Source: Henricia sp. BOLD:AAB3569 (lineage: Eukaryota > Echinodermata > Asteroidea > Spinulosida > Echinasteridae). From it: 64,000 bases of DNA. Of this stretch, positions 16,411 to 50,690 are shown piece by piece. Position 1 is the first letter of the stretch. Each line of letters opens with the position of its first letter. The notes beneath the pieces were generated by a model, which did no database searches, was not told the origin of the DNA, and saw only the letters and a list, made by a program, of their open reading frames with translations. Both the position numbers and the translations under genes were made by a program. The stretch covers positions 186,001 to 250,000 of the forward strand of contig JBBELK010000569.1 in assembly GCA_037783545.1 (NCBI GenBank). Direction: 5' to 3'.

Positions 16411-17370
16411 TCACGCAAACCGTGGCTGTCTGTACACACCTCTTTGGGGTACTCCTGAGTTGGGCGCATGCTCAGTCATTCGGACTGTCGTAAACGCACC
16501 GCAGTTTGGCTCGGCAATTTGGTCAAAGTGTGGTCCAAACGTCGGCAAATTTGGAGGTCGAAAAATGTTCCGACGAACTTCAAATTTTGCATGCCCTAAA
16601 CTCTCTATATTGCGCACTTGTCATAAAAAATTGACAGACTTTCGCCGGGAAATGGCAGAAAAATTTCAAAGTTTAAAAAAAACTGGGTTGAGGCTTCCTG
16701 ACTGCTCTCACGCAAACCGTGGCTGTCTGTACACACCTCTTTGGGGTACTCCTGAGTTGTGCGCATGCTCAGTCATTCGGACTGTCGTTAACGCACCGCA
16801 GTTTGGCTCGGCAATTTGGTCAAAGTGTGGTCCAAACGTCGGCAAATTTGGAGGTCGAAAAATGTTCCGACGAACTTCAAATTTTGCATGCCCTAAACTC
16901 TCTTTATTGCGCACTTGTCATAAAAAATTGACAGACTTTCGCCGGGAAATGGCAGAGAAATTTCAAAGTTTAGAAAAAACTGGGTTTAGGCTTCCTGACT
17001 GCTCTCACGCAAACCGTGGCTGTCTGTACACACCTATTTGGGGTACTCCTGAGTTGTGCGCATGCTCAGTCATTCGGACTGTCGTTAACGCACCGCAGTT
17101 TGGCTCGGCAATTTGGTCAAAGTGTGGTCCAAACGTCGGCAAATTTGGAGGTCGAAAAATGTTCCGACGAACTTCAAATTTTGCATGCCCTAAACTCTCT
17201 ATATTGCGCACTTGTCATAAAAAATTGACAGACTTTCGCCGGGAAATGGCAGAGAAATTTCAAAGTTTAGAAAAAACTGGGTTGAGGCTTCCTGACTGCT
17301 CTCACGCAAACCGTGGCTGTCTGTACACACCTCTTTGGGGTACTCCTGAGTTGTGCGCATGCTCAGTCAT
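16411..17370 (+). repeat. Satellite monomers leading into the first SINE
   Basis: Just over three monomers: one with GTAAACG and GAGTTGGGCGC, one with CTCTTTATTG followed by GGGTTTAGG, one with CACCTATTTGG, then a partial monomer ending in ATGCTCAGTCAT (17359-17370), the left target-site duplication of the SINE. The same succession recurs 1,484 bp downstream, so this is the left half of a tandem duplication that includes the SINE. Confidence 0.9.
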
Positions 17371-17654
17371 GGGCGGTCGGGTTGGCGTACGGGTTCTTTC
17401 CTCGACTTTCACCTCTGGCGTCCCGGGTTCGAATCCGGGGCGTGTATGTGGATTGGGTTTGCAGTCCCTACTTGACCGCGTGGGTTTTCCCCTGGGGCAT
17501 TTCTCTGGGGGTTTTCCTCCCACTTCAAAAACTGCAACTCCTTCTTCGTCATCTCAAGTTGATAATATAGTATTGTTTAATCTAAAAAACCGTATAGTTG
17601 ATGGCTTAAAGGGCCCTTAGTTGCCGAAGATGCCATAAAATATACAACAACAAC
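17371..17654 (+). mobile_element. tRNA-derived SINE, subtype A (284 bp), copy 1
   Basis: A non-autonomous retroposon. The head (about 17371-17445) is tRNA-like with an A-box-like TGGCGTACGGG (17383-17393) and a perfect B box GGTTCGAATCC (17426-17436) flanked by CCCGG/CCGGG. A central GT-rich segment (about 17475-17541) ends in GGTTTTCCTCCCAC and recalls conserved central domains of metazoan SINEs (from memory, not searched). The 3' end is the short tail ACAACAACAAC. It is bounded by a 12-bp direct repeat, ATGCTCAGTCAT, at 17359-17370 and 17655-17666, as expected of LINE-machinery target-primed insertion. No protein is encoded. tRNA finders may call its head a tRNA pseudogene. Confidence 0.88.
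17383..17436 (+). promoter_or_regulatory. Internal RNA polymerase III promoter (A and B boxes) of SINE copy 1
   Basis: The B box GGTTCGAATCC at 17426-17436 matches the pol III consensus exactly. The A-box candidate TGGCGTACGGG at 17383-17393 matches TGGCNNA and the final GG but not the middle two bases. The gap of 32 bases is normal for tRNA-type promoters. The other seven SINEs carry identical boxes at the same offsets. Activity is not shown by sequence alone. Confidence 0.7.
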
Positions 17655-18854
17655 ATGCTCAGTCATTCGGACTGTCGTTAACGCACCGCAGTTTGGCTCG
17701 GCAATTTGGTCAAAGTGTGGTCCAAACGTCGGCAAATTTGGAGGTCGAAAAATGTTCCGACGAACTTCAAATTTTGCATGCCCTAAACTCTCTATATTGC
17801 GCACTTGTCATAAAAAATTGACAGACTTTCGCCGGGAAATGGCAGAGAAATTTCAAAGTTTAGAAAAAACTGGGTTGAGGCTTCCTGACTGCTCTCACGC
17901 AAACCGTGGCTGTCTGTACACACCTCTTTGGGGTACTCCTGAGTTGTGCGCATGCTCAGTCATTCGGACTGTCGTAAACGCACCGCAGTTTGGCTCGGCA
18001 ATTTGGTCAAAGTGTGGTTCAAACGTCGGCAAATTTGGAGGTCGAAAAATGTTCCGACGAACTTCAAATTTTGCATGCCCTAAACTCTCTATATTGCGCA
18101 CTTGTCATAAAAAATTGACAGACTTTCGCCGGGAAATGGCAGAAAAATTTCAAAGTTTAGAAAAAACTGGGTTGAGGCTTCCTGACTGCTCTCACGCAAA
18201 CCGTGGCTGTCTGTACACACCTCTTTGGGGTACTCCTGAGTTGTGCGCATGCTCAGTCATTCGGACTGTCGTTAACGCACCGCAGTTTGGCTCGGCAATT
18301 TGGTCAAAGTGTGGTCCAAACGTCGGCAAATTTGGAGGTCGAAAAATGTTCCGACGAACTTCAAATTTTGCATGCCCTAAACTCTCTTTATTGCGCACTT
18401 GTCATAAAAAATTGACAGACTTTCGCCGGGAAATGGCAGAGAAATTTCAAAGTTTAGAAAAAACTGGGTTTAGGCTTCCTGACTGCTCTCACGCAAACCG
18501 TGGCTGTCTGTACACACCTCTTTGGGGTACTCCTGAGTTGTGCGCATGCTCAGTCATTCGGACTGTCGTTAACGCACCGCAGTTTGGCTCGGCAATTTGG
18601 TCAAAGTGTGGTCCAAACGTCGGCAAATTTGGAGGTCGAAAAATGTTCCGACGAACTTCAAATTTTGCATGCCCTAAACTCTCTATATTGCGCACTTGTC
18701 ATACAAAATTGACAGACTTTCGCCGGAAAATGGCAGAGAAATTTTAAAGTTTAGAAAAAACTGGGTTGAGGCTTCCTGACTGCTCTCACGCAAACCGTGG
18801 CTGTCTGTACACACCTCTTTGGGGTACTCCTGAGTTGTGCGCATGCTCAGTCAT
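17655..18854 (+). repeat. Four satellite monomers between SINE copies 1 and 2
   Basis: The segment is 12 bp of target-site duplication plus exactly 4 x 297 bp. It includes GTAAACG and CTCTTTATTG monomers matching those at 16411-17005 with a constant 1,484-bp offset. GTGGTTCAAACG near 18015 and CGCCGGAAAATGG near 18721 are private changes. The GAAATTTTAAAG near 18740 closes the open frame. It ends with ATGCTCAGTCAT (18843-18854). Confidence 0.93.
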
Positions 18855-19138
18855 GGGCGGTCGGGTTGGCGTACGGGTTCTTTCCTCGACTTTCACCTCT
18901 GGCGTCCCGGGTTCGAATCCGGGGCGTGTATGTGGATTGGGTTTGCAGTCCCTACTTGACCGCGTGGGTTTTCCCCTGGGGCATTTCTCTGGGGGTTTTC
19001 CTCCCACTTCAAAAACTGCAACTCCTTCTTCGTCATCTCAAGTTGATAATATAGTATTGTTTAATCTAAAAAACCGTATAGTTGATGGCTTAAAGGGCCC
19101 TTAGTTGCCGAAGATGCCATAAAATATTCAACAACAAC
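18855..19138 (+). mobile_element. tRNA-derived SINE, subtype A (284 bp), copy 2
   Basis: Nearly identical to copy 1 and at the same monomer base, with target-site duplications at 18843-18854 and 19139-19150. Boxes lie at 18867-18877 (A-like) and 18910-18920 (B). It shares CTTCGTCATC with copy 1 only, and has AATATTCAAC where the others have AATATACAAC. Its spacing of 1,484 bp from copy 1 equals four monomers plus one SINE and one duplication, so it is a tandem duplicate of copy 1 rather than a new insertion. Confidence 0.88.
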
Positions 19139-22100
19139 ATGCTCAGTCATTCGGACTGTCGTTAACGCACCGCAGTTTGGCTCGGCAATTTGGTCAAAGT
19201 GTGGTCCAAACGTCGGCAAATTTGGAGGTCGAAAAATGTTCCGACGAACTTCAAATTTTGCATGCCCTAAACTCTCTATATTGCGCACTTGTCATAAAAA
19301 ATTGACAGACTTTCGCCGGGAAATGGCAGAGAAATTTCAAAGTTTAGACAAAACTGGGTTGAGGCTTCCTGACTGCTCTCACGCAAACCGTGGCTGTCTG
19401 TACACACCTCTTTGGGGTACTCCTGAGTTGTGCGCATGCTCAGTCATTCGGACTGTCGTTAACGCACCGCAGTTTGGCTCGGCAATTTGGTCAAAGTGTG
19501 GTCCAAACGTCGGCAAATTTGGAGGTCGAAAAATGTTCCGACGAACTTCAAATTTTGCATGCCCTAAACTCTCTATATTGCGCACTTGTCATAAAAAATT
19601 GACAGACTTTCCCCCGGAAATGGCAGATAAATTTCAAAGTTTAGACAAAACTGGGTTGAGGCTTCCTGACTGCTCTCACGCAAACCGTGGCTGTCTGTAC
19701 ACACCTCTTTGGGGTACTTCTGAGTTGTGCGCATGCTCAGTCATTCGGACTGTCGTTAACGCACCGCAGTTTGGCTCGGCAATTTGGTCAAAGTGTGGTC
19801 CAAACGTCGGCAAATTTGGAGGTCGAAAAATGTTCCGACGAACTTCAAATTTTGCATGCCCTAAACTCTCTATATTGCGCACTTGTCATACAAAATTGAC
19901 AGACTTTCGCCGGGAAATGGCAGAGAAATTTCAAAGTTTAGACAAAACTGGGTTGAGGCTTCCTGACTGCTCTCACGCAAACCGTGGCTGTCTGTACACA
20001 CCTCTTTGGGGTACTCCTGAGTTGTGCGCATGCTCAGTCATTCGGACTGTCGTTAACGCACCGCAGTTTGGCTCGGCAATTTGGTCAAAGTGTGGTCCAA
20101 ACGTCGGCAAATTTGGAGGTCGAAAAATGTTCCGACGAACTTCAAATTTTGCATGCCCTAAACTCTCTATATTGCGCACTTGTCATAAAAAATTGACAGA
20201 CTTTCCCCGGGAAATGGCAGATAAATTTCAAAGTTTAGACAAAACTGGGTTGAGGCTTCCTGACTGCTCTCACGCAAACCGTGGCTGTCTGTACACACCT
20301 CTTTGGGGTACTCCTGAGTTGTGCGCATGCTCAGTCATTCGGACTGTCGTTAACGCACCGCAGTTTGGCTCGGCAATTTGGTCAAAGTGTGGTCCAAACG
20401 TCGGCAAATTTGGAGGTCGAAAAATGTTCCGACGAACTTCAAATTTTGCATGCCCTAAACTCTCTATATTGCGCACTTGTCATAAAAAATTGACAGACTT
20501 TCGCCGGGAAATGGCAGAGAAATTTCAAAGTTTAGAAAAAACTGGGTTGAGGCTTCCTGACTGCTCTCACGCAAACCGTGGCTGTCTGTACACACCTCTT
20601 TGGGGTACTCCTGAGTTGTGCGCATGCTCAGTCATTCGGACTGTCGTTAACGCACCGCAGTTTGGCTCGGCAATTTGGTCAAAGTGTGGTCCAAACGTCG
20701 GCAAATTTGGAGGTCGAACAATGTTCCGACGAACTTCAAATTTCGCATGCCCTAAACTCTCTATATTGCGCACTTGTCATAAAAAATTGACAGACTTTCG
20801 CCGGGAAATGGCAGAGAAATTTCAAAGTTTAGACAAAACTGGGTTGAGGCTTCCTGACTGCTCTCACGCAAACCGTGGCTGTCTGTACACACCTCTTTGG
20901 GGTACTCCTGAGTTGTGCGCATGCTCAGTCATTCGGACTGTCGTTAACGCACCGCAGTTTGGCTCGGCAATTTGGTCAAAGTGTGGTCCAAACGTCGGCA
21001 AATTTGGAGGTCGAAAAATGTTCCGACGAACTTCAAATTTTGCATGCCCTAAACTCTCTATATTGCGCACTTGTCATAAAAAATTGACAGACTTTCCCCG
21101 GGAAATGGCAGATAAATTTCAAAGTTTAGAAAAAACTGGGTTGAGGCTTCCTGACTGCTCTCGCGCAAACCGTGGCTGTCTGTACACACCTCTTTGGGGT
21201 ACTCCTGAGTTGTGCGCATGCTCAGTCATTCGGACTGTCGTTAACGCACCGCAGTTTGGCTCGGCAATTTGGTCAAAGTGTGGTCCAAACGTCGGCAAAT
21301 TTGGAGGTCGAAAAATGTTCCGACGAACTTCAAATTTTGCATGCCCTAAACTCTCTATATTGCGCACTTGTCATAAAAAATTGACAGACTTTCGCCGGGA
21401 AATGGCAGAGAAATTTCAAAGTTTAGACAAAACTGGGTTGAGGCTTCCTGACTGCTCTCACGCAAACCGTGGCTGTCTGTACACACCTCTTTGGGGTACT
21501 CCTGAGTTGTGCGCATGCTCAGTCATTCGGACTGTCGTTAACGCACCGCAGTTTGGCTCGGCAATTTGGTCAAAGTGTGGTCCAAACGTCGGCAAATTTG
21601 GAGGTCGAAAAATGTTCCGACGAACTTCAAATTTTGCATGCCCTAAACTCTCTATATTGCGCACTTGTCATAAAAAATTGACAGACTTTCCCCGGGAAAT
21701 GGCAGATAAATTTCAAAGTTTAGACAAAACTGGGTTGAGGCTTCCTGACTGCTCTCGCGCAAACCGTGGCTGTCTGTACACACCTCTTTGGGGTACTCCT
21801 GAGTTGTGCGCATGCTCAGTCATTCGGACTGTCGTTAACGCACCGCAGTTTGGCTCGGCAATTTGGTCAAAGTGTGGTCCAAACGTCGGCAAATTTGGAG
21901 GTCGAAAAATGTTCCGACGAACTTCAAATTTTGCATGCCCTAAACTCTCTATATTGCGCACTTGTCATAAAAAATTGACAGACTTTCGCCGGGAAATGGC
22001 AGAGAAATTTCAAAGTTTAGACAAAACTGGGTTGAGGCTTCCTGACTGCTCTCACGCAAACCGTGGCTGTCTGTACACACCTCTTTGGGGTACTCCTGAG

Positions 22101-23150
22101 TTGTGCGCATGCTCAGTCATTCGGACTGTCGTTAACGCACCGCAGTTTGGCTCGGCAATTTGGTCAAAGTGTGGTCCAAACGTCGGCAAATTTGGAGGTC
22201 GAAAAATGTTCCGACGAACTTCAAATTTTGCATGCCCTAAACTCTCTATATTGCGCACTTGTCATAAAAAATTGACAGACTTTCCCCGGGAAATGGCAGA
22301 TAAATTTCAAAGTTTAGACAAAACTGGGTTGAGGCTTCCTGACTGCTCTCACGCAAACCGTGGCTGTCTGTACACACCTCTTTGGGGTACTTCTGAGTTG
22401 TGCGCATGCTCAGTCATTCGGACTGTCGTTAACGCACCGCAGTTTGGCTCGGCAATTTGGTCAAAGTGTGGTCCAAACGTCGACAAATTTGGAGGTCGAA
22501 AAATGTTCCGACGAACTTCAAATTTTGCATGCCCTAAACTCTCTATATTGCGCACTTGTCATAAAAAATTGACAGACTTTCGCCGGGAAATGGCAGAGAA
22601 ATTTCAAAGTTTAGAAAAAAACTGGGTTGAGGCTTCCTGACTGCTCTCACGCAAACCGTGGCTGTCTGTACACACCTCTTTGGGGTACTCCTGAGTTGTG
22701 CGCATGCTCAGTCATTCGGACTGTCGTTAACGCACCGCAGTTTGGCTCGGCAATTTGGTCAAAGTGTGGTCCAAACGTCGGCAAATTTGGAGGTCGAAAA
22801 ATGTTCCGACGAACTTCAAATTTTGCATGCCCTAAACTCTCTATATTGCGCACTTGTCATAAAAAATTGACAGACTTTCCCCGGGAAATGGCAGATAAAT
22901 TTCAAAGTTTAGACAAAACTGGGTTGAGGCTTCCTGACTGCTCTCACGCAAACCGTGGCTGTCTGTACACACCTCTTTGGGGTACTTCTGAGTTGTGCGC
23001 ATGCTCAGTCATTCGGACTGTCGTTAACGCACCGCAGTTTGGCTCGGCAATTTGGTCAAAGTGTGGTCCAAACGTCGACAAATTTGGAGGTCGAAAAATG
23101 TTCCGACGAACTTCAAATTTTGCATGCCCTAAACTCTCTATATTGCGCAC
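19139..23150 (+). repeat. Satellite section with 594-bp dimeric HOR
   Basis: Two monomer types alternate for most of the section: one with TTTCGCCGGGAAATGGCAGAG and one with TTTCCCCGGGAAATGGCAGAT. Most copies also carry TTTAGACAAAACTGG instead of TTTAGAAAAAACTGG, a change nearly restricted to this section. The alternation slips once near 20500-20800, where two CGCC types are adjacent. Two copies with TCTCGCGCAAACC lie exactly 594 bp apart (near 21163 and 21757). At the right end a pair with CGTCGACAAATTT and GGTACTTCTGAG recurs at a 595-bp offset (near 22480 and 23075). Confidence 0.87.
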
Positions 23151-26100
23151 TTGTCATAAAAAATTGACAGACTTTCGCCGGGAAATGGCAGAGAAATTTC
23201 AAAGTTTAGAAAAAACTGGGTTGAGGCTTCCTGACTGCTCTCACGCAAACCGTGGCTGTCTGTACACACCTCTTTGGGGTACTCCTGAGTTGTGCGCATG
23301 CTCAGTCATTCGGACTGTCGTTAACGCACCGCAGTTTGGCTCGGCAATTTGGTCAAAGTGTGGTCCAAACGTCGGCAAATTTGGAGGTCGAAAAATGTTC
23401 CGACGAACTTCAAATTTTGCATGCCCTAAACTCTCTATATTGCGCACTTGTCATAAAAAATTGACAGACTTTCGCCGGGAAATGGCAGAGAAATTTCAAA
23501 GTTTAGAAAAAAATGGGTTGAGGCTTCCTGACTGCTCTCACGCAAACCGTGGCTGTCTGTACACACCTCTTTGGGGTACTCCTGAGTTGTGCGCATGCTC
23601 AGTCATTCGGACTGTCGTTAACGCACCGCAGTTTGGCTCGGCAATTTGGTCAAAGTGTGGTCCAAACGTCGGCAAATTTGGAGGTCGAAAAATGTTCCGA
23701 CGAACTTCAAATTTTGCATGCCCTAAACTCTCTATATTGCGCACTTGTCATAAAAAATTGACAGACTTTCCCCGGGAAATGGCAGATAAATTTCAAAGTT
23801 TAGAAAAAACTGGGTTGAGGCTTCCTGACTGCTCTCGCGCAAACCGTGGCTGTCTGTACACACCTCTTTGGGGTACTCCTGAGTTGTGCGCATGCTCAGT
23901 CATTCGGACTGTCGTTAACGCACCGCAGTTTGGCTCGGCAATTTGGTCAAAGTGTGGTCCAAACGTCGGCAAATTTGGAGGTCGAACAATGTTCCGACGA
24001 ACTTCAAATTTTGCATGCCCTAAACTCTCTATATTGCGCACTTGTCATAAAAAATTGACAGACTTTCGCCGGGAAATGGCAGAGAAATTTCAAAGTTTAG
24101 AAAAAAATGGGTTGAGGCTTCCTGACTGCTCTCACGCAAACCGTGGCTGTCTGTACACACCTCTTTGGGGTACTCCTGAGTTGTGCGCATGCTCAGTCAT
24201 TCGGACTGTCGTTAACGCACCGCAGTTTGGCTCGGCAATTTGGTCAAAGTGTGGTCCAAACGTCGGCAAATTTGGAGGTCGAAAAATGTTCCGACGAACT
24301 TCAAATTTTGCATGCCCTAAACTCTCTATATTGCGCACTTGTCATAAAAAATTGACAGACTTTCGCCGGGAAATGGCAGAGAAATTTCAAAGTTTAGAAA
24401 AAACTGGGTTGAGGCTTCCTGACTGCTCTCACGCAAACCGTGGCTGTCTGTACACACCTCTTTGGGGTACTCCTGAGTTGTGCGCATGCTCAGTCATTCG
24501 GACTGTCGTTAACGCACCGCAGTTTGGCTCGGCAATTTGGTCAAAGTGTGGTCCAAACGTCGGCAAATTTGGAGGTCGAAAAATGTTCCGACGAACTTCA
24601 AATTTTGCATGCCCTAAACTCTCTATATTGCGCACTTGTCATAAAAAATTGACAGACTTTCGCCGGGAAATGGCAGAGAAATTTCAAAGTTTAGAAAAAA
24701 CTGGGTTGAGGCTTCCTGACTGCTCTCACGCAAACCGTGGCTGTCTGTACACACCTCTTTGGGGTACTCCTGAGTTGTGCGCATGCTCAGTCATTCGAAC
24801 TGTCGTTAACGCACCGCAGTTTGGCTCGGCAATTTGGTCAAAGTGTGGTCCAAACGTGGGCAAATTTGGAGGTCGAAAAATGTTCCGACGAACTTCAAAT
24901 TTTGCATGCCCTAAACTCTCTATATTGCGCACTTGTCATAAAAAATTGACAGACTTTCGCCGGGAAATGGCAGAGAAATTTCAAAGTTTAGAAAAAACTG
25001 GGTTGAGGCTTCCTGACTGCTCTCACGCAAACCGTGGCTGTCTGTACACACCTCTTTGGGGTACTCCTGAGTTGTGCGCATGCTCAGTCATTCGAACTGT
25101 CGTTAACGCACCGCAGTTTGGCTCGGCAATTTGGTCAAAGTGTGGTCCAAACGTGGGCAAATTTGGAGGTCGAAAAATGTTCCGACGAACTTCAAATTTT
25201 GCATGCCCTAAACTCTCTATATTGCGCACTTGTCATAAAAAATTGACAGACTTTCCCCGGGAAATGGCAGATAAATTTCAAAGTTTAGAAAAAACTGGGT
25301 TGAGGCTTCCTGACTGCTCTCGCGCAAACCGTGGCTGTCTGTACACACCTCTTTGGGGTACTCCTGAGTTGTGCGCATGCTCAGTCATTCGGACTGTCGT
25401 TAACGCACCGCAGTTTGGCTCGGCAATTTGGTCAAAGTGTGGTCCAAACGTCGGCAAATTTGGAGGTCGAACAATGTTCCGACGAACTTCAAATTTTGCA
25501 TGCCCTAAACTCTCTATATTGCGCACTTGTCATAAAAAATTGACAGACTTTCGCCGGGAAATGGCAGAGAAATTTCAAAGTTTAGAAAAAAATGGGTTGA
25601 GGCTTCCTGACTGCTCTCACGCAAACCGTGGCTGTCTGTACACACCTCTTTGGGGTACTCCTGAGTTGTGCGCATGCTCAGTCATTCGGACTGTCGTTAA
25701 CGCACCGCAGTTTGGCTCGGCAATTTGGTCAAAGTGTGGTCCAAACGTCGGCAAATTTGGAGGTCGAAAAATGTTCCGACGAACTTCAAATTTTGCATGC
25801 CCTAAACTCTCTATATTGCGCACTTGTCATAAAAAATTGACAGACTTTCGCCGGGAAATGGCAGAGAAATTTCAAAGTTTAGAAAAAACTGGGTTGAGGC
25901 TTCCTGACTGCTCTCACGCAAACCGTGGCTGTCTGTACACACCTCTTTGGGGTACTCCTGAGTTGTGCGCATGCTCAGTCATTCGGACTGTCGTTAACGC
26001 ACCGCAGTTTGGCTCGGCAATTTGGTCAAAGTGTGGTCCAAACGTGGGCAAATTTGGAGGTCGAAAAATGTTCCGACGAACTTCAAATTTTGCATGCCCT

Positions 26101-27717
26101 AAACTCTCTATATTGCGCACTTGTCATAAAAAATTGACAGACTTTCCCCGGGAAATGGCAGATAAATTTCAAAGTTTAGAAAAAACTGGGTTGAGGCTTC
26201 CTGACTGCTCTCGCGCAAACCGTGGCTGTCTGTACACACCTCTTTGGGGTACTCCTGAGTTGTGCGCATGCTCAGTCATTCGGACTGTCGTTAACGCACC
26301 GCAGTTTGGCTCGGCAATTTGGTCAAAGTGTGGTCCAAACGTCGGCAAATTTGGAGGTCGAACAATGTTCCGACGAACTTCAAATTTTGCATGCCCTAAA
26401 CTCTCTATATTGCGCACTTGTCATAAAAAATTGACAGACTTTCGCCGGGAAATGGCAGAGAAATTTCAAAGTTTAGAAAAAAATGGGTTGAGGCTTCCTG
26501 ACTGCTCTCACGCAAACCGTGGCTGTCTGTACACACCTCTTTGGGGTACTCCTGAGTTGTGCGCATGCTCAGTCATTCGGACTGTCGTTAACGCACCGCA
26601 GTTTGGCTCGGCAATTTGGTCAAAGTGTGGTCCAAACGTCGGCAAATTTGGAGGTCGAAAAATGTTCCGACGAACTTCAAATTTTGCATGCCCTAAACTC
26701 TCTATATTGCGCACTTGTCATAAAAAATTGACAGACTTTCGCCGGGAAATGGCAGAGAAATTTCAAAGTTTAGAAAAAACTGGGTTGAGGCTTCCTGACT
26801 GCTCTCACGCAAACCGTGGCTGTCTGTACACACCTCTTTGGGGTACTCCTGAGTTGTGCGCATGCTCAGTCATTCGGACTGTCGTTAACGCACCGCAGTT
26901 TGGCTCGGCAATTTGGTCAAAGTGTGGTCCAAACGTCGGCAAATTTGGAGGTCGAAAAATGTTCCGACGAACTTCAAATTTTGCATGCCCTAAACTCTCT
27001 ATATTGCGCACTTGTCATAAAAAAATGACAGACTTTCGCCGGGAAATGGCAGAGAAATTTCAAAGTTTAGAAAAAACTGGGTTGAGGCTTCCTGACTGCT
27101 CTCACGCAAACCGTGGCTGTCTGTACACACCTCTTTGGGGTACTCCTGAGTTGTGCGCATGCTCAGTCATTCGAACTGTCGTTAACGCACCGCAGTTTGG
27201 CTCGGCAATTTGGTCAAAGTGTGGTCCAAACGTGGGCAAATTTGGAGGTCGAAAAATGTTCCGACGAACTTCAAATTTTGCATGCCCTAAACTCTCTATA
27301 TTGCGCACTTGTCATAAAAAATTGACAGACTTTCGCCGGGAAATGGCAGAGAAATTTCAAAGTTTAGAAAAAACTGGGTTGAGGCTTCCTGACTGCTCTC
27401 ACGCAAACCGTGGCTGTCTGTACACACCTCTTTGGGGTACTCCTGAGTTGTGCGCATGCTCAGTCATGGGCGGTCGGGTTGGCGTACGGGTTCTTTCCTC
27501 GACTTTCACCTCTGGCGTCCCGGGTTCGAATCCGGGGCGTGTATGTGGATTGGGTTTGCAGTCCCTACTTGACCGCGTGGGTTTTCCCCTGGGGCATTTC
27601 TCTGGGGGTTTTCCTCCCACTTCAAAAACTGCAACTCCTTCTTCTTCATCTCAAGTTGATAATATAGTATTGTTTAATCTAAAAAACCGTATAGTTGATG
27701 GCTTAAAGGGCCCTTAG
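22627..27717 (+). other. Longest open frame (1,696 codons), a by-product of the satellite, not a gene
   Basis: This frame stays open across about 16 monomers because each is 99 codons without a stop, then reads into SINE copy 3 and stops there. The predicted product is the same 99-residue unit repeated, with no recognisable domain, signal peptide or membrane segment. Elsewhere in the window the same frame is closed by TTTTGAGG, CCGATGAAC and AAATTTTAAAG variants and shifted by 276-, 298- and 299-bp monomers. The equivalent short open frames also occur on the opposite strand. I infer no coding selection. Confidence 0.85.
23151..27467 (+). repeat. Satellite section marked by GGTCGAACAATG blocks
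   Basis: Monomers with TCTCGCGCAAACC and GGTCGAACAATG, each followed by one with GAAAAAAATGGG, occur near 23830-24115, 25320-25600 and 26210-26490, at offsets of 1,485 bp (five monomers) and 891 bp (three monomers). Monomers with CATTCGAACTG and AAACGTGGGC (near 24800, 25095 and 27170) are another local subtype. The section ends at ATGCTCAGTCAT (27456-27467). Confidence 0.87.
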
Positions 27718-28090: not shown

Positions 28091-28123
28091 GGCGGTCGGG
28101 TTGGCGTACGGGTTCTTTCCTCG
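28091..28123 (+). mobile_element. SINE head fragment (33 bp)
   Basis: Identical over 33 bases to the start of the full-length SINEs, through the A-box-like TGGCGTACGGG up to TTTCCTCG. Then CTGGCCTGTG replaces the expected ACTTTCACC. There is no B box. It could be a truncated or chimeric SINE, or a related element sharing the same head. Confidence 0.75.
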
Positions 28124-38857: not shown

Positions 38858-39400
38858 GGGCGGTCGGGTTGGCGTACGGGTTCTTTCCTCGACTTTCACC
38901 TCTGGCGTCCCGGGTTCGAATCCGGGGCGTGTATGTGGATTGGGTTTGCAGTCCCTACTTGACCGCGTGGGTTTTCCCCTGGGGCAATCTCTGGGGGTTT
39001 TCCTCCCACTTCAAAAACTGAAACTCCTTCTTCTTCATCTCAAGTTGATAATATAGTATTGTTTAATCTAAAAAACCGTATAGATGATGGCTTAAAGGGC
39101 CCTTAGTTGCCGAAGATGCCATAAAATATACAACAACAACATGCTCAGTCATTCGGACTGTCGTTAACGCACCGCAGTTTGGCTCGGCAATTTGGTCAAA
39201 GTGTGGTCCAAACGTCGGCAAATTTGGAGGTCGAAAAATGTTCCGACGAACTTCAAATTTTGCATGCCCTAAACTCTCTATATTGCGCACTTGTCATAAA
39301 AAATTGACAGACTTTCGCCGGGAAATGGCAGAGAAATTTCAAAGTTTAGAAAAAACTGGGTTGAGGCTTCCTGACTGCTCTCACGCAAACCGTGGCTGTC
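36000..39400 (+). repeat. Duplicated SINE-bearing block, left copy (approximate ends)
   Basis: About eleven monomers and SINE copy 6. Every marker recurs 11,287 bp downstream: CGGCCAATTT, CAGTAATTCGGAATG, CTCTTTATATTG, GAAATTTTAAAG, and the SINE with AACTGAAACTCC. The match ends on the right before the CCGACTAAC monomer (39543) and on the left after SINE copy 5, which has no counterpart at that offset. Confidence 0.82.
38858..39140 (+). mobile_element. tRNA-derived SINE, subtype B (283 bp), copy 6
   Basis: Same insertion base, with duplications at 38846-38857 and 39141-39152. A-like box at 38870-38880, B box at 38913-38923. It carries AACTGAAACTCC where most copies have AACTGCAACTCC. Only copy 8 shares this, supporting a common recent origin. 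Confidence 0.88.
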
Positions 39401-42400
39401 TGTACACACCTCTTTGGGGTACTCCTGAGTTGTGCGCATGCTCAGTCATTCGGACTGTCGTTAACGCACCGCAGTTTGGCTCGGCAATTTGGTCAAAGTG
39501 TGGTCCAAACGTCGGCAAATTTGGAGGTCGAAAAATGTTCCGACTAACTTCAAATTTTGCATGCCCTAAACTCTCTATATTGCGCACTTGTCATAACAAA
39601 TTGACAGACTTTCGCCGGGAAATGGCAGAGAAATTTCAAAGTTTAGAAAAAACTGGGTTGAGGCTTCCTGACTGCTCTCACGCAAACCGTGGCTGTCTGT
39701 ACACACCTCTTTGGGGTACTCCTGAGTTGTGCGCATGCTCAGTCATTCGGACTGTCGTTAACGCACCGCAGTTTGGCTCGGCAATTTGGTCAAAGTGTGG
39801 TCCAAACGTCGGCAAATTTGGAGGTCAAAAAAATGTTCCGACGAACTTCAAATTTTGCATGCCCTAAACTCTCTATATTGCGCACTTGTCATAAAAAATT
39901 GACAGACTTTCGCCGGGAAATGGCAGAGAAATTTCAAAGTTTAGAAAAAACTGGGTTGAGGCTTCCTGACTGCTCTTACGCAAACCGTGGCTGTCTGTAC
40001 ACACCTCTTTGGGGTACTCCTGAGTTGTGCGCATGCTCAGTCATTCGGACTGTCGTTAACGCACCGCAGTTTGGCTCGGCAATTTGGTCAAAGTGTGGTC
40101 CAAACGTCGGCAAATTTGGAGGTCGAAAAATGTTCCGACGAACTTCAAATTTTGCATGCCCTAAACTCTCTATATTGCGCACTTGTCATAAAAAATTGAC
40201 AGACTTTCGCCGGGAAATGGCAGAGAAATTTCAAAGTTTAGAAAAAAACTGGGTTGAGGCTTCCTGACTGCTCTCACGCAAACCGTGGCTGTCTGTACAC
40301 ACCTCTTTGGGGTACTCCTGAGTTGTGCGCATGCTCAGTCATTCGGACTGTCGTTAACGCACCGCAGTTTGGCTCGGCAATTTGGTCAAAGTGTGGTCCA
40401 AACGTCGGCAAATTTGGAGGTCGAAAAATGTTCCGACGAACTTCAAATTTTGCATGCCCTAAATTCTCTATATTGCGCACTTGTCATAAAAAATTGACAG
40501 ACTTTCGCCGGGAAATGGCAGAGAAATTTCAAAGTTTAGAAAAAACTGGGTTGAGGCTTCCTGACTGCTCTCACGCAAACCGTGGCTGTCTGTACACACC
40601 TCTTTGGGGTACTCCTGAGTTGTGCGCATGCTCAGTCATTCGGACTGTCGTTAACGCACCGCAGTTTGGCTCGGCAATTTGGTCAAAGTGTGGTCCAAAC
40701 GTCGGCAAATTTGGAGGTCGAAAAATGTTCCGACGAACTTCAAATTTTGCATGCCCTAAACTCTCTATATTGCGCACTTGTCATAAAAAAATGACAGACT
40801 TTCGCCGGGAAATGGCAGAGAAATTTCAAAGTTTAGAAAAAACTGGGTTGAGGCTTCCTGACTGCTCTCACGCAAACCGTGGCTGTCTGTACACACCTCT
40901 TTGGGGTACTCCTGAGTTGTGCGCATGCTCAGTCATTCGGACTGTCGTTAACGCACCGCAGTTTGGCTCGGCAATTTGGTCAAAGTGTGGTCCAAACGTC
41001 GGCAAATTTGGAGGTCGAAAAATGTTCCGACGAACTTCAAATTTTGCATGCCCTAAACTCTCTATATTGCGCACTTGTCATAAAAAATTGACAGACTTTC
41101 GCCGGGAAATGGCAGAGAAATTTCAAAGTTTAGAAAAAACTGGGTTGAGGCTTCCTGACTGCTCTCACGCAAACCGTGGCTGTCTGTACACACCTCTTTG
41201 GGGTACTCCTGAGTTGTGCGCATGCTCAGTCATTCGGACTGTCGTTAACGCACCGCAGTTTGGCTCGGCAATTTGGTCAAAGTGTGGTCCAAACGTCGGC
41301 CAATTTGGAGGTCGAAAAATGTTCCGACGAACTTCAAATTTTGCATGCCCTAAACTCTCTATATTGCGCACTTGTCATAAAAAATTGACAGACTTTCGCC
41401 GGGAAATGGCAGAGAAATTTCAAAGTTTAGAAAAAACTGGGTTGAGGCTTCCTGACTGCTCTCACGCAAACCGTGGCTGTCTGTACACACCTCTTTGGGG
41501 TACTCCTGAGTTGTGCGCATGCTCAGTAATTCGGAATGTCGTTAACGCACCGCAGTTTGGCTCGGCAATTTGGTCAAAGTGTGGTCCAAACGTCGGCAAA
41601 TTTGGAGGTCGAAAAATGTTCCGACGAACTTCAAATTTTGCATGCCCTAAACTCTCTATATTGCGCACTTGTCATAACAAATTGACAGACTTTCGCCGGG
41701 AAATGGCAGAGAAATTTCAAAGTTTAGAAAAAACTGGGTTGAGGCTTCCTGACTGCTCTCACGCAAACCGTGGCTGTCTGTACACACCTCTTTGGGGTAC
41801 TCCTGAGTTGTGCGCATGCTCAGTCATTCGGACTGTCGTTAACGCACCGCAGTTTGGCTCGGCAATTTGGTCAAAGTGTGGTCCAAACGTCGGCCAATTT
41901 GGAGGTCGAAAAATGTTCCGACGAACTTCAAATTTTGCATGCCCTAAACTCTCTATATTGCGCACTTGTCATAACAAATTGACAGACTTTCGCCGGGAAA
42001 TGGCAGAGAAATTTCAAAGTTTAGAAAAAACTGGGTTGAGGCTTCCTGACTGCTCTCACGCAAACCGTGGCTGTCTGTACACACCTCTTTGGGGTACTCC
42101 TGAGTTGTGCGCATGCTCAGTAATTCGGAATGTCGTTAACGCACCGCAGTTTGGCTCGGCAATTTGGTCAAAGTGTGGTCCAAACGTCGGCAAATTTGGA
42201 GGTCGAAAAATGTTCCGACGAACTTCAAATTTTGCATGCCCTAAACTCTCTATATTGCGCACTTGTCATAACAAATTGACAGACTTTCGCCGGGAAATGG
42301 CAGAGAAATTTCAAAGTTTAGAAAAAACTGGGTTGAGGCTTCCTGACTGCTCTCACGCAAACCGTGGCTGTCTGTACACACCTCTTTGGGGTACTCCTGA

Positions 42401-45394
42401 GTTGTGCGCATGCTCAGTCATTCGGACTGTCGTTAACGCACCGCAGTTTGGCTCGGCAATTTGGTCAAAGTGTGGTCCAAACGTCGGCCAATTTGGAGGT
42501 CGAAAAATGTTCCGACGAACTTCAAATTTTGCATGCCCTAAACTCTCTATATTGCGCACTTGTCATACAAAATTGACAGACTTTCGCCGGGAAATGGCAG
42601 AGAAATTTCAAAGTTTAGAAAAAACTGGGTTGAGGCTTCCTGACTGCTCTCACGCAAACCGTGGCTGTCTGTACACACCTCTTTGGGGTACTCCTGAGTT
42701 GTGCGCATGCTCAGTAATTCGGACTGTCGTTAACGCACCGCAGTTTGGCTCGGCAATTTGGTCAAAGTGTGGTCCAAACGTCGGCAAATTTGGAGGTCGA
42801 AAAATGTTCCGACGAACTTCAAATTTTGCATGCCCTAAACTCTCTATATTGCGCACTTGTCATAAAAAATTGACAGACTTTCGCCGGGAAATGGCAGAGA
42901 AATTTTAAAGTTTAGAAAAAACTGGGTTGAGGCTTCCTGACTGCTCTCACGCAAACCGTGGCTGTCTGTACACACCTCTTTGGGGTACTCCTGAGTTGTG
43001 CGCATGCTCAGTCATTCGGACTGTCGTTAACGCACCGCAGTTTGGCTCGGCAATTTGGTCAAAGTGTGGTCCAAACGTCGGCAAATTTGGAGGTCGAAAA
43101 ATGTTCCGACGAACTTCAAATTTTGCATGCCCTAAACTCTCTATATTGCGCACTTGTCATAACAAATTGACAGACTTTCGCCGGGAAATGGCAGAGAAAT
43201 TTCAAAGTTTAGAAAAAACTGGGTTGAGGCTTCCTGACTGCTCTCACGCAAACCGTGGCTGTCTGTACACACCTCTTTGGGGTACTCCTGAGTTGTGCGC
43301 ATGCTCAGTCATTCGGACTGTCGTTAACGCACCGCAGTTTGGCTCGGCAATTTGGTCAAAGTGTGGTCCAAACGTCGGCAAATTTGGAGGTCGAAAAATG
43401 TTCCGACGAACTTCAAATTTTGCATGCCCTAAACTCTCTATATTGCGCACTTGTCATAAAAAATTGACAGACTTTCGCCGGGAAATGGCAGAGAAATTTT
43501 AAAGTTTAGAAAAAACTGGGTTGAGGCTTCCTGACTGCTCTCACGCAAACCGTGGCTGTCTGTACACACCTCTTTGGGGTACTCCTGAGTTGTGCGCATG
43601 CTCAGTCATTCGGACTGTCGTTAACGCACCGCAGTTTGGCTCGGCAATTTGGTCAAAGTGTGGTCCAAACGTCGGCAAATTTGGAGGTCGAAAAATGTTC
43701 CGACGAACTTCAAATTTTGCATGCCCTAAACTCTCTATATTGCGCACTTGTCATAAAAAATTGACAGACTTTCGCCGGGAAATGGCAGAGAAATTTCAAA
43801 GTTTAGAAAAAACTGGGTTGAGGCTTCCTGACTGCTCTCACGCAAACCGTGGCTGTCTGTACACACCTCTTTGGGGTACTCCTGAGTTGTGCGCATGCTC
43901 AGTCATTCGGACTGTCGTTAACGCACCGCAGTTTGGCTCGGCAATTTGGTCAAAGTGTGGTCCAAACGTCGGCAAATTTGGAGGTCAAAAAAATGTTCCG
44001 ACGAACTTCAAATTTTGCATGCCCTAAACTCTCTATATTGCGCACTTGTCATAAAAAATTGACAGACTTTCGCCCGGAAATGGCAGAGAAATTTCAAAGT
44101 TTAGAAAAAACTGGGTTGAGGCTTCCTGACTGCTCTCACGCAAACCGTGGCTGTCTGTACACACCTCTTTGGGGTACTCCTGAGTTGTGCGCATGCTCAG
44201 TCATTCGGACTGTCGTTAACGCACCGCAGTTTGGCTCGGCAATTTGGTCAAAGTGTGGTCCAAACGTCGGCAAATTTGGAGGTCGAAAAATGTTCCGACT
44301 AACTTCAAATTTTGCATGCCCTAAACTCTCTATATTGCGCACTTGTCATAACAAATTGACAGACTTTCGCCGGGAAATGGCAGAGAAATTTCAAAGTTTA
44401 GAAAAAACTGGGTTGAGGCTTCCTGACTGCTCTCACGCAAACCGTGGCTGTCTGTACACACCTCTTTGGGGTACTCCTGAGTTGTGCGCATGCTCAGTCA
44501 TTCGGACTGTCGTTAACGCACCGCAGTTTGGCTCGGCAATTTGGTCAAAGTGTGGTCCAAACGTCGGCAAATTTGGAGGTCAAAAAAATGTTCCGACGAA
44601 CTTCAAATTTTGCATGCCCTAAACTCTCTATATTGCGCACTTGTCATAAAAAATTGACAGACTTTCGCCGGGAAATGGCAGAGAAATTTCAAAGTTTAGA
44701 AAAAACTGGGTTGAGGCTTCCTGACTGCTCTTACGCAAACCGTGGCTGTCTGTACACACCTCTTTGGGGTACTCCTGAGTTGTGCGCATGCTCAGTCATT
44801 CGGACTGTCGTTAACGCACCGCAGTTTGGCTCGGCAATTTGGTCAAAGTGTGGTCCAAACGTCGGCAAATTTGGAGGTCGAAAAATGTTCCGACGAACTT
44901 CAAATTTTGCATGCCCTAAACTCTCTATATTGCGCACTTGTCATAAAAAATTGACAGACTTTCGCCGGGAAATGGCAGAGAAATTTCAAAGTTTAGAAAA
45001 AAACTGGATTGAGGCTACCTGACTGCTCTCACGCAAACCGTGGCTGTCTGTACACACCTCTTTGGGGTACTCCTGAGTTGTGCGCATGCTCAGTCATTCG
45101 GACTGTCGTTAACGCACCGCAGTTTGGCTCGGCAATTTGGTCAAAGTGTGGTCCAAACGTCGGCAAATTTGGAGGTCGAAAAATGTTCCGACGAACTTCA
45201 AATTTTGCATGCCCTAAACTCTCTATATTGCGCACTTGTCATAAAAAATTGACAGACTTTCGCCGGGAAATGGCAGAGAAATTTCAAAGTTTAGAAAAAA
45301 CTGGGTTGAGGCTTCCTGACTGCTCTCACGCAAACCGTGGCTGTCTGTACACACCTCTTTGGGGTACTCCTGAGTTGTGCGCATGCTCAGTCAT
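39141..45394 (+). repeat. Satellite section between SINE copies 6 and 7
   Basis: About 21 monomers in recurring sets. The CCGACTAAC monomer (near 39543), GGTCAAAAAAATG (39826) and CTCTTACGC (39975) come first. Then alternating CGGCCAATTT and CAGTAATTCGGAATG monomers (41298, 41525, 41892, 42119, 42487), CAGTAATTCGGACTG (42713) and GAAATTTTAAAG (42902 and 43496). The CCGACTAAC set then returns (44297 to 44730). AAAAACTGGATTGAGGCTACC near 45000 is private. Confidence 0.93.
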
Positions 45395-45677
45395 GGGCGG
45401 TCGGGTTGGCGTACGGGTTCTTTCCTCGACTTTCACCTCTGGCGTCCCGGGTTCGAATCCGGGGCGTGTATGTGGATTGGGTTTGCAGTCCCTACTTGAC
45501 CGCGTGGGTTTTCCCCTGGGGCAATCTCTGGGGGTTTTCCTCCCACTTCAAAAACTGCAACTCCTTCTTCTTCATCTCAAGTTGATAATATAGTATTGTT
45601 TAATCTAAAAAACCGTATAGATGATGGCTTAAAGGGCCCTTAGTTGCCGAAGATGCCATAAAATATACAACAACAAC
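45395..45677 (+). mobile_element. tRNA-derived SINE, subtype B (283 bp), copy 7
   Basis: Same insertion base, with duplications at 45383-45394 and 45678-45689. A-like box at 45407-45417, B box at 45450-45460. It has AACTGCAACTCC and the right-flank CCGACGGACTTC, grouping it with copies 4 and 5. Confidence 0.88.
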
Positions 45678-48600
45678 ATGCTCAGTCATTCGGACTGTCG
45701 TTAACGCACCGCAGTTTGGCTCGGCAATTTGGTCAAAGTGTGGTCCAAACGTCGGCAAATTTGGAGGTCGAAAAATGTTCCGACGGACTTCAAATTTTGC
45801 ATGCCCTAAACTCTCTATATTGCGCACTTGTCATACAAAATTGACAGACTTTCGCCGGGAAATGGCAGAGAAATTTCAAAGTTTAGAAAAAACTGGGTTG
45901 AGGCTTCCTGACTGCTCTCACGCAAACCGTGGCTGTCTGTACACACCTCTTTGGGGTACTCCTGAGTTGTGCGCATGCTCAGTCATTCGGACTGTCGTTA
46001 ACGCACCGCAGTTTGGCTCGGCAATTTGGTCAAAGTGTGGTCCAAACGTCGGCAAATTTGGAGGTCGAAAAATGTTCCGACGAACTTCAAATTTTGCATG
46101 CCCTAAACTCTCTATATTGCGCACTTGTCATAAAAAATTGACAGACTTTCGCCGGGAAATGGCAGAGAAATTTCAAAGTTTAGAAAAAACTGGGTTGAGG
46201 CTTCCTGACTGCTCTCACGCAAACCGTGGCTGTCTGTACACACCTCTTTGGGGTACTCCTGAGTTGTGCGCATGCTCAGTCATTCGGACTGTCGTTAACG
46301 CACCGCAGTTTGGCTCGGCAATTTGGTCAAAGTGTGGTCCAAACGTCGGCAAATTTGGAGGTCGAAAAATGTTCCGACGAACTTCAAATTTTGCATGCCC
46401 TAAACTCTCTATATTGCGCACTTGTCATAAAAAATTGACAGACTTTCGCCGGGAAATGGCAGAGAAATTTCAAAGTTTAGAAAAAACTGGGTTGAGGCTT
46501 CCTGACTGCTCTCACGCAAACCGTGGCTGTCTGTACACACCTCTTTGGGGTACTCCTGAGTTGTGCGCATGCTCAGTCATTCGGACTGTCGTTAACGCAC
46601 CGCAGTTTGGCTCGGCAATTTGGTCAAAGTGTGGTCCAAACGTCGGCCAATTTGGAGGTCGAAAAATGTTCCGACGAACTTCAAATTTTGCATGCCCTAA
46701 ACTCTCTATATTGCGCACTTGTCATAAAAAATTGACAGACTTTCGCCGGGAAATGGCAGAGAAATTTCAAAGTTTAGAAAAAACTGGGTTGAGGCTTCCT
46801 GACTGCTCTCACGCAAACCGTGGCTGTCTGTACACACCTCTTTGGGGTACTCCTGAGTTGTGCGCATGCTCAGTAATTCGGAATGTCGTTAACGCACCGC
46901 AGTTTGGCTCGGCAATTTGGTCAAAGTGTGGTCCAAACGTCGGCAAATTTGGAGGTCGAAAAATGTTCCGACGAACTTCAAATTTTGCATGCCCTAAACT
47001 CTCTATATTGCGCACTTGTCATAACAAATTGACAGACTTTCGCCGGGAAATGGCAGAGAAATTTCAAAGTTTAGAAAAAACTGGGTTGAGGCTTCCTGAC
47101 TGCTCTCACGCAAACCGTGGCTGTCTGTACACACCTCTTTGGGGTACTCCTGAGTTGTGCGCATGCTCAGTCATTCGGACTGTCGTTAACGCACCGCAGT
47201 TTGGCTCGGCAATTTGGTCAAAGTGTGGTCCAAACGTCGGCCAATTTGGAGGTCGAAAAATGTTCCGATGAACTTCAAATTTTGCATGCCCTAAACTCTC
47301 TATATTGCGCACTTGTCATAAAAAATTGACAGACTTTCGCCGGGAAATGGCAGAGAAATTTCAAAGTTTAGAAAAAACTGGGTTGAGGCTTCCTGACTGC
47401 TCTCACGCAAACCGTGGCTGTCTGTACACACCTCTTTGGGGTACTCCTGAGTTGTGCGCATGCTCAGTCATTCGGACTGTCGTTAACGCACCGCAGTTTG
47501 GCTCGGCAATTTGGTCAAAGTGTGGTCCAAACGTCGGCAAATTTGGAGGTCGAAAAATGTTCCGACGAACTTCAAATTTTGCATGCCCTAAACTCTCTAT
47601 ATTGCGCACTTGTCATAAAAAATTGACAGACTTTCGCCGGGAAATGGCAGAGAAATTTCAAAGTTTAGAAAAAACTGGGTTGAGGCTTCCTGACTGCTCT
47701 CACGCAAACCGTGGCTGTCTGTACACACCTCTTTGGGGTACTCCTGAGTTGTGCGCATGCTCAGTCATTCGGACTGTCGTTAACGCACCGCAGTTTGGCT
47801 CGGCAATTTGGTCAAAGTGTGGTCCAAACGTCGGCCAATTTGGAGGTCGAAAAATGTTCCGACGAACTTCAAATTTTGCATGCCCTAAACTCTCTATATT
47901 GCGCACTTGTCATAAAAAATTGACAGACTTTCGCCGGGAAATGGCAGAGAAATTTCAAAGTTTAGAAAAAACTGGGTTGAGGCTTCCTGACTGCTCTCAC
48001 GCAAACCGTGGCTGTCTGTACACACCTCTTTGGGGTACTCCTGAGTTGTGCGCATGCTCAGTAATTCGGAATGTCGTTAACGCACCGCAGTTTGGCTCGG
48101 CAATTTGGTCAAAGTGTGGTCCAAACGTCGGCAAATTTGGAGGTCGAAAAATGTTCCGACGAACTTCAAATTTTGCATGCCCTAAACTCTCTATATTGCG
48201 CACTTGTCATAACAAATTGACAGACTTTCGCCGGGAAATGGCAGAGAAATTTCAAAGTTTAGAAAAAACTGGGTTGAGGCTTCCTGACTGCTCTCACGCA
48301 AACCGTGGCTGTCTGTACACACCTCTTTGGGGTACTCCTGAGTTGTGCGCATGCTCAGTCATTCGGACTGTCGTTAACGCACCGCAGTTTGGCTCGGCAA
48401 TTTGGTCAAAGTGTGGTCCAAACGTCGGCCAATTTGGAGGTCGAAAAATGTTCCGATGAACTTCAAATTTTGCATGCCCTAAACTCTCTATATTGCGCAC
48501 TTGTCATAAAAAATTGACAGACTTTCGCCGGGAAATGGCAGAGAAATTTCAAAGTTTAGAAAAAACTGGGTTGAGGCTTCCTGACTGCTCTCACGCAAAC

Positions 48601-50144
48601 CGTGGCTGTCTGTACACACCTCTTTGGGGTACTCCTGAGTTGTGCGCATGCTCAGTAATTCGGACTGTCGTTAACGCACCGCAGTTTGGCTCGGCAATTT
48701 GGTCAAAGTGTGGTCCAAACGTCGGCAAATTTGGAGGTCGAAAAATGTTCCGACGAACTTCAAATTTTGCATGCCCTAAACTCTTTATATTGCGCACTTG
48801 TCATAAAAAATTGACAGACTTTCGCCGGGAAATGGCAGAGAAATTTTAAAGTTTAGAAAAAACTGGGTTGAGGCTTCCTGACTGCTCTCACGCAAACCGT
48901 GGCTGTCTGTACACACCTCTTTGGGGTACTCCTGAGTTGTGCGCATGCTCAGTCATTCGGACTGTCGTTAACGCACCGCAGTTTGGCTCGGCAATTTGGT
49001 CAAAGTGTGGTCCAAACGTCGGCAAATTTGGAGGTCGAAAAATGTTCCGACGAACTTCAAATTTTGCATGCCCTAAACTCTCTATATTGCGCACTTGTCA
49101 TAAAAAATTGACAGACTTACGCCGGGAAATGGCAGAGAAATTTCAAAGTTTAGAAAAAACTGGGTTGAGGCTTCCTGACTGCTCTCACGCAAACCGTGGC
49201 TGTCTGTACACACCTCTTTGGGGTACTCCTGAGTTGTGCGCATGCTCAGTCATTCGGACTGTCGTTAACGCACCGCAGTTTGGCTCGGCAATTTGGTCAA
49301 AGTGTGGTCCAAACGTCGGCAAATTTGGAGGTCGAAAAATGTTCCGACGAACTTCAAATTTTGCATGCCCTAAACTCTCTATATTGCGCACTTGTCATAA
49401 AAAATTGACAGACTTTCCCCGGGAAATGGCAGATAAATTTCAAAGTTTAGAAAAAACTGGGTTGAGGCTTCCTGACTGCTCTCACGCAAACCGTGGCTGT
49501 CTGTACACACCTCTTTGGGGTACTCCTGAGTTGTGCGCATGCTCAGTCATTCGGACTGTCGTTAACGCACCGCAGTTTGGCTCGGCAATTTGGTCAAAGT
49601 GTGGTCCAAACGTCGGCAAATTTGGAGGTCGAAAAATGTTCCGACGAACTTCAAATTTTGCATGCCCTAAACTCTCTATATTGCGCACTTGTCATAAAAA
49701 ATTGACAGACTTTCGCCGGGAAATGGCAGAGAAATTTCAAAGTTTAGAAAAAACTGGGTTGAGGCTTCCTGACTGCTCTCACGCAAACCGTGGCTGTCTG
49801 TACACACCTCTTTGGGGTACTCCTGAGTTGTGCGCATGCTCAGTCATTCGGACTGTCGTTAACGCACCGCAGTTTGGCTCGGCAATTTGGTCAAAGTGTG
49901 GTCCAAACGTGGGCAAATTTGGAGGTCGAAAAATGTTCCGACGAACTTCAAATTTTGCATGCCCTAAACTCTCTATATTGCGCACTTGTCATAAAAAATT
50001 GACAGACTTTCGCCGGGAAATGGCAGAGAAATTTCAAAGTTTAGAAAAAACTGGGTTGAGGCTTCCTGACTGCTCTCACGCAAACCGTGGCTGTCTGTAC
50101 ACACCTCTTTGGGGTACTCCTGAGTTGTGCGCATGCTCAGTCAT
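45678..50144 (+). repeat. Satellite section between SINE copies 7 and 8
   Basis: Exactly 15 monomers plus the 12-bp duplication. It contains a four-monomer (1,188-bp) tandem duplication marked by the private CCGATGAAC at 47266 and 48454. The CTCTTTATATTG monomer follows (near 48782), then GAAATTTTAAAG (near 48847), GACTTACGCCGGG (near 49117), a CCCCGGGAAATGGCAGAT monomer (near 49420) and AAACGTGGGC (near 49908). Confidence 0.93.
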
Positions 50145-50690
50145 GGGCGGTCGGGTTGGCGTACGGGTTCTTTCCTCGACTTTCACCTCTGGCGTCCCGG
50201 GTTCGAATCCGGGGCGTGTATGTGGATTGGGTTTGCAGTCCCTACTTGACCGCGTGGGTTTTCCCCTGGGGCAATCTCTGGGGGTTTTCCTCCCACTTCA
50301 AAAACTGAAACTCCTTCTTCTTCATCTCAAGTTGATAATATAGTATTGTTTAATCTAAAAAACCGTATAGATGATGGCTTAAAGGGCCCTTAGTTGCCGA
50401 AGATGCCATAAAATATACAACAACAACATGCTCAGTCATTCGGACTGTCGTTAACGCACCGCAGTTTGGCTCGGCAATTTGGTCAAAGTGTGGTCCAAAC
50501 GTCGGCAAATTTGGATTTCGAAAAATGTTCCGACGAACTTCAAATTTTGCATGCCCTAAACTCTCTATATTGCGCACTTGTCATAAAAAATTGACAGACT
50601 TTCGCCGGGAAATGGCAGAGAAATTTCAAAGTTTAGAAAAAAATGGGTTGAGGCTTCCTGACTGCTCTCACGCAAACCGTGGCTGTCTGT
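47290..50690 (+). repeat. Duplicated SINE-bearing block, right copy (approximate ends)
   Basis: Counterpart of 36.0-39.4 kb at an 11,287-bp offset, including SINE copy 8. Differences include CCGATGAAC at 48454, CCCCGGGAAATGGCAGAT near 49420 (CGCC in the left copy), GACTTACGCC near 49117 and GGATTTCG near 50514. Confidence 0.82.
50145..50427 (+). mobile_element. tRNA-derived SINE, subtype B (283 bp), copy 8
   Basis: Same insertion base, with duplications at 50133-50144 and 50428-50439. A-like box at 50157-50167, B box at 50200-50210. It shares AACTGAAACTCC with copy 6, at an offset of exactly 11,287 bp. The right flank has the private AATTTGGATTTCG (near 50511). Confidence 0.88.

Follow-up and report, generated by a model that had tools for sequence, protein, structure and literature searches.

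We analysed a window of 64,000 nucleotides (64 kb) from the sea star Henricia sp. BOLD:AAB3569 (assembly GCA_037783545.1, contig JBBELK010000569.1, positions 186,001 to 250,000), the whole of which is a single satellite array of 297-bp period, as reported by Tandem Repeats Finder (TRF), interrupted by eight full-length copies of an element resembling a short interspersed element (SINE). The array was cut into 204 monomers (m0 to m203), which were aligned, the partial monomers at both window ends being left out; in this procedure the empty site was restored at nine insertions, and two intervals without an internal anchor were split by length. The 204 monomers show a mean identity of 99.2% to their consensus over alignment columns, and the multi-monomer lags at which variants are shared best are 27 and 6 in the left part of the array and 36, 34 and 17 for monomers 98-189.

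The eight elements, named here by their start positions, are 283-284 bp long, all lie on the + strand, and are all inserted after base 267 of the consensus monomer, so that every copy has ...GCGCATGCTCAGTCAT directly upstream and ATGCTCAGTCATTCGG directly downstream. Each is flanked on both sides by the duplication ATGCTCAGTCAT, and all eight have the same full-length 5′ end and the same AACAACAAC tail, with one base change immediately 5′ of the tail in copy 18855. The exact string ATGCTCAGTCATTCGG occurs 179 times in the window, a count that includes the eight downstream duplications, and eight sites are filled. A first-pass annotation, made from the sequence alone, had placed the eight starts, the shared junction and the same 12-bp duplication as we describe them, and all were confirmed by inspection and by blastn. 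It had also reasoned that SINEs at many other monomer positions would speak against a common origin; when copy 1 was compared with the whole window by low-threshold blastn, the sole match besides the eight full-length copies was a 34-bp SINE head at 28090-28123, and no 15-base seed of copy 1 was found on the - strand of the window. The coordinates are collected in Table 1.

Table 1. Features of the 64-kb window, in window coordinates.
Feature	Position	Strand	Remarks
Satellite array of 297-bp monomers	1..64000	+	TRF row, period 297, 215.4 copies; some monomers 276 or 294-301 bp
Tandem duplication of a 4-monomer block (m54-57, m58-61)	16213..19180	+	SINE-bearing monomer at right edge
SINE copy 1 with both 12-bp duplications	17359..17666	+	Element 17371-17654
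Box B-like RNA polymerase III promoter motif GGTTCGAATCC	17426..17436	+	SINE copy 1, element base 56; motif scan of copy 1, eight-copy alignment
SINE copy 2 with both duplications	18843..19150	+	Element 18855-19138; block m58-61 repeats m54-57
SINE copy 3 with both duplications	27456..27763	+	Element 27468-27751; intermediate haplotype
Composite insert, 703 bp	28091..28793	+	One copy in window; first 34 SINE bases (28090-28123) and about 670 bp of unrelated sequence
SINE copy 4 with both duplications	31126..31432	+	Element 31138-31420; A67G monomer next
SINE copy 5 with both duplications	35581..35887	+	Element 35593-35875; A67G monomer next
Block m114-m122	36215..39182	+	Paralogous to m150-m158 (47502-50469); both end in a SINE with the private C-to-A; SINE-blind monomer-string alignment
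SINE copy 6 with both duplications	38846..39152	+	Element 38858-39140; private C-to-A, also in copy 8
SINE copy 7 with both duplications	45383..45689	+	Element 45395-45677; A67G monomer next
SINE copy 8 with both duplications	50133..50439	+	Element 50145-50427; private C-to-A, also in copy 6

To describe the element itself we scanned copy 1 with box A and box B consensus motifs, which we take to be the usual ones. The box B-like motif, which matches the consensus exactly, is the same in all eight copies, and an imperfect box A-like motif, TGGCGTACGG, lies at element base 13 of copy 1. The 12-bp target-site duplication and the simple AACAACAAC tail, both marks of a SINE, are present in 8/8 copies, though all of them probably descend from one event. 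This anatomy broadly resembles that of a tRNA-type SINE, and a diverged tRNA-like head would remain compatible with it; as the head is recognised neither by ARAGORN (0 tRNAs in the whole window) nor by the tRNA model of Rfam, we call the element SINE-like rather than a tRNA-type SINE. At E values up to 10, Rfam gave four weak matches on 17350-17680, none of them a tRNA (best E 0.097, with 17.4 bits where the gathering score is 49.5), which we took as chance, and on 26800-31800 there was no match at E up to 1. The middle of the element, GTGGGTTTTCCCC...CCTCCCAC, may resemble the conserved central Nin domain that is characteristic of the Nin-DC SINE superfamily. The open reading frames (ORFs) that cover copy 1 either are short (47 aa within the element) or overlap the satellite, and the predicted RNA fold is unexceptional (z -1.88). 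Viral contigs contained no exact match to patterns from the satellite or to one pattern each from the box B region and the tail of the SINE, and phage records none to the SINE.

The eight copies are nearly identical. They differ pairwise at 0-6 sites, with a mean of 0.96% per site, against a monomer-monomer difference of 1.07% for monomers 57-158 (0.91% for monomers 98-158). In the eight-copy alignment their variants nest without conflict: 17371 and 18855, which have one base in common, form one end of the series; 27468 carries the intermediate haplotype; and the remaining five (31138, 35593, 45395, 38858 and 50145) have in common two linked bases and a length difference of 1 bp, to which 38858 and 50145 add the private C-to-A. 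Copies 31138, 35593 and 45395 are identical in sequence, and so are 38858 and 50145. No copy outside the array is known, and the tree of the copies is therefore unrooted.

To relate these haplotypes to their surroundings we listed the monomer variants of all 204 monomers and scored linkage by position relative to the SINE host. Variant A67G occurs in three monomers only, the immediate downstream neighbours of the identical SINE copies 31138, 35593 and 45395 (3/3 carriers, p 4e-5). C96T is confined to two monomers, four monomers upstream of 38858 and 50145, and G151A to two others, two monomers upstream of 17371 and 18855 (2/2 carriers in each case), while C34G is found in seven monomers, four of which are SINE hosts (p 3e-5). 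These four are the best of 611 linkage tests; after correction for that number A67G and C34G stand at about 0.02 each, while C96T and G151A taken singly do not reach significance. That the three private flank groups match the SINE groups has a chance of 1 in 1680, by post hoc arithmetic. When the set of eight positions was shifted along the array by more than 12 monomers, the observed linkage sum was reached in 0/66 shifts, whichever of four frequency limits was applied. This rerun omitted the smaller shifts (12 or less) because they kept the same linkages inside the scanned offsets; in the first version, which included them, 7/90 shifts equalled or exceeded the observed value at every limit. 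Independent jitter of the positions reached the linkage statistic in 1/1735, 11/1738, 72/1780 and 12/1749 trials at the four limits.

Shared flanks extend over several monomers in three sets of blocks, m54-57/m58-61, m107-113/m137-144 and m114-122/m150-158, each sharing flank variants in the same order. An ungapped comparison of m54-57 with m58-61 found T280A, G151A and A98T+G181T in order in both, and the left flanks have 7 differences at the SINE register against a mean of 17.9 and a minimum of 12 at shifted registers; the two SINE host monomers differ at three sites. Aligning m103-135 with m132-188 as strings of monomers, blind to the SINEs, set 35593 opposite 45395 and 38858 opposite 50145, and no SINE opposite an empty monomer. 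Copies 38858 and 50145 lie 36 monomers apart, which is one of the best sharing lags for monomers 98-189.

The most probable explanation by far, and one that we hold with high confidence, is a single SINE-like retroposition followed by copying during duplication of the array, with the element as a passenger and not a periodic unit. By target-primed reverse transcription, a SINE-like element would have entered one monomer a single time, behind base 267, and made the 12-bp duplication; stretches that included the filled monomer would later have been copied by duplications within the array, for which unequal exchange, together with some gene conversion, is the most likely route. The outcome would be eight copies spread across 102 monomers, their flanks broken and rejoined in further exchanges. 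The data show the identical insertion anatomy, the near-identity of the copies and the linkage of SINE haplotypes with flank variants; that the element arrived by retroposition, and by what kind of event it was then copied, we infer. The proposal of the first-pass annotation, one retroposition and then copying with the satellite, thus holds up: duplications, 5′ ends and tails are identical, and the flank variants agree with the SINE haplotypes. What is expected when a transposable element is amplified with a satellite was found as well, namely identical junctions and linkage between haplotype and flank, though the latter not for every pair.

Several results weigh against so simple a history. 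The C34G hosts (27468, 31138, 38858 and 50145) cross the SINE groups; the flanks thus depart from a clean tree, and exchanges within the host monomer have to be assumed. Most SINE pairs show flank homology no higher than the array average. In a rigid register test with four monomers per side, 4/56 pair-sides beat all shifts, where about 2.7 are expected by chance; the left side of 35593/45395 fails this test because an extra monomer, m142, adjoins one copy, and the four monomers beyond it are identical. Only 2/28 SINE pairs score above the 95% level set by 3491 random pairs, and one of them, 17371/18855, has an inflated score, its flank having been aligned to itself through gaps. The correlation between SINE differences and flank scores (Mantel rho -0.77, p 0.0012) has two confounders, this self-aligned pair and the distance between copies in the array (rho 0.64, p 0.003). 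At the four frequency limits, the linkage statistic was reached in 0, 14, 53 and 19 of 500 draws of eight random monomers. Local alignments gave seven one-sided host pairings, with a SINE-less partner, against four two-sided ones. Such results fit a history of repeated exchanges whose breakpoints lay close to the SINE, and leave room for gene conversion in some copies. Block duplication affects much of the array, which makes it of little use to compare flank scores with those of random monomer pairs; we relied instead on the ungapped block comparison and the register-shift control.

A second account shares the single insertion and differs in the copying step only: gene conversion, acting on single monomers, would have been the main means of spread instead of the duplication of multi-monomer blocks. 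Its appeal lies in the several hosts with different haplotypes (CONS, C34G and A117C+G140A+C158T) and in the many SINE pairs without an extended shared flank; the ordered flank variants shared over several monomers by the three sets of blocks argue against it as the main route. We consider it unlikely, though a possibility to be taken seriously, and both processes may have acted. Much less probable is an artefact of assembly, in which SINE-bearing reads were falsely duplicated in a collapsed or mis-joined array. The array was seen in a single contig, without reads, and its end looks poorly called, with 20 one-copy indels in the last 14 monomers (from 59683); however, the copies differ from each other in their linked variants and in their surroundings, and one-copy indels number zero in monomers 98-189 and two in monomers 57-97. 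Finally, repeated independent insertions, with the endonuclease of a partner long interspersed element (LINE) cutting a fixed site in the satellite, would account for the same base and the same duplication in 8/8 copies, and target-specific elements without long terminal repeats (LTRs) do exist, and the YURE elements of Ciona, according to excerpts of one paper, occasionally insert into a U2-derived satellite (PMC4640811). However, independent events would be expected to leave tails and duplications of differing length and differing 5′ truncations, and the eight copies show no such variation; the variants internal to the SINE agree with private flank variants, and the SINE-head insert at 28091 uses another monomer base (though it is a chimera, perhaps made by other machinery), so that insertion anatomy and linkage rule this explanation out for practical purposes and we regard it as the least probable of all.

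The first-pass annotation had gone further and described a SINE-bearing higher-order unit, with the SINE as a structural component of the satellite. This part is not supported. The element is present in 8/204 monomers, all within monomers 57-158 and none in m0-56 (57 monomers) or m159-203 (45 monomers); successive copies are 4, 28, 9, 14, 10, 21 and 15 monomers apart; and paralogous blocks have SINE-less partners. A regular higher-order unit with one SINE each is ruled out by these irregular gaps (4-28 monomers) together with the lag profile. Although the array has local multi-monomer patterns, the SINE does not return with them at a fixed place, and as far as these data go it is carried along by array turnover without marking a period. 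With its duplication it adds 295-296 bp, 1-2 bp short of a 297-bp monomer, moving the phase of the array by 1-2 bp per copy. It is conceivable, but in our view doubtful, that the insertion is register-neutral, so that monomers stay in phase for exchange or for the positioning of nucleosomes, and that it was tolerated and copied as a pseudo-monomer, unlike inserts of other lengths such as the single-copy composite insert.

That composite insert shares its first G (28090) with the target and replaces CTC of the monomer, which amounts to a 3-bp target loss instead of a duplication, at a monomer base other than 267. Insertion that carries SINE sequence is therefore not bound to base 267. The insert contains a 67-bp tandem repeat, a 3′-end hairpin and AATAAA...AAAAA, and is without box B. 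Rfam gave one match on it (E 3.4), taken as chance; its longest ORF lying wholly inside has 130 aa on the minus strand, and a 249-aa ORF runs into the satellite. In a Pfam scan of three of its ORFs no match was above cut-off (best NapD, E 0.018, 15.6 bits against 28), and its RNA fold is unexceptional (z -1.04). It is likely a chimeric retrocopy that arose by template switching to SINE RNA; comparable chimeras with U6 and L1 are known.

Cases in which other transposable elements were amplified together with other satellites are already known, and the array described here is a clear SINE-like example. An insertion has reportedly also been described in the bovine 1.711b satellite. ATHILA insertions in the CEN178 centromeres of Arabidopsis were reportedly duplicated after integration along with satellite higher-order repeats, so that there, by this account, as here, an element inserted in a satellite was copied together with its flanking monomers; unlike ATHILA, the element studied here is short, non-autonomous and SINE-like, and its monomer has 297 bp. 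Our array would add a SINE-like case to a process that is, we believe, better known for LTR elements in plants. If the single insertion is true, the element serves as a natural marker inside the satellite, its copies tracing the duplication and breakage of monomer stretches over about 33 kb, and such copies should not be counted as separate transpositions.

Published work bears on comparable systems. Duplication after integration into a satellite-rich centromere was suggested also for the CRM retrotransposons of Brachypodium (PMC10910784), which are LTR retrotransposons and not SINE-like. In a further system transposable elements were likewise amplified with tandem repeats, but those elements lie next to the arrays, and the excerpts mention no single point of insertion within a monomer. 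In the bivalve Donax trunculus the RUDI SINE splits a monomer of the DTHS3 satellite (PMC5139131), a full-length SINE interrupting a satellite monomer as here; unlike here, the excerpts speak of one fragment with no target duplication found, and do not describe amplification. The PcH-sat satellite of Patella contains part of a Nin-SINE (PMC11121367), and likewise links a SINE to a tandem array, but there the SINE piece lies within the monomer itself, in contrast to a rare passenger in 8/204 monomers. In excerpts of PMC11062924, PMC8010984, PMC5857280, PMC3747384, PMC4920115 and PMC11917152 there was no SINE amplified with a satellite. The literature was searched by words and not by sequence, and among the matches listed no description of this satellite or SINE appeared, which does not imply that none is in print.

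Some further features of the satellite were observed. One frame of the 297-bp monomer (99 codons, + strand) is free of stops, resulting in open stretches of up to 1700 codons (22615-27714 and elsewhere). Such a frame was open in 68/3000 base-shuffled monomers. The distinct monomer variants within it comprise 14 synonymous, 52 non-synonymous and 5 stop changes, of 208, 639 and 44 possible, and frame-breaking insertions occur in 31 of the first 190 monomers. A Pfam scan of one monomer unit gave no match, and that of two units gave matches below cut-off only (best DUF371, E 0.002). The open frame is probably due to chance.

One-copy indels number 20 in the last 14 analysed monomers (59683-63837) and 2 in the first 190, one of the latter being a product of our own joining of flanks; this suggests poor consensus quality at the contig end or decay at the array edge. 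In the left part of the array, five 276-bp monomers between 7996 and 16212 have in common a 21-bp deletion together with G63A and A74T, and mark a higher-order pattern of about six monomers.

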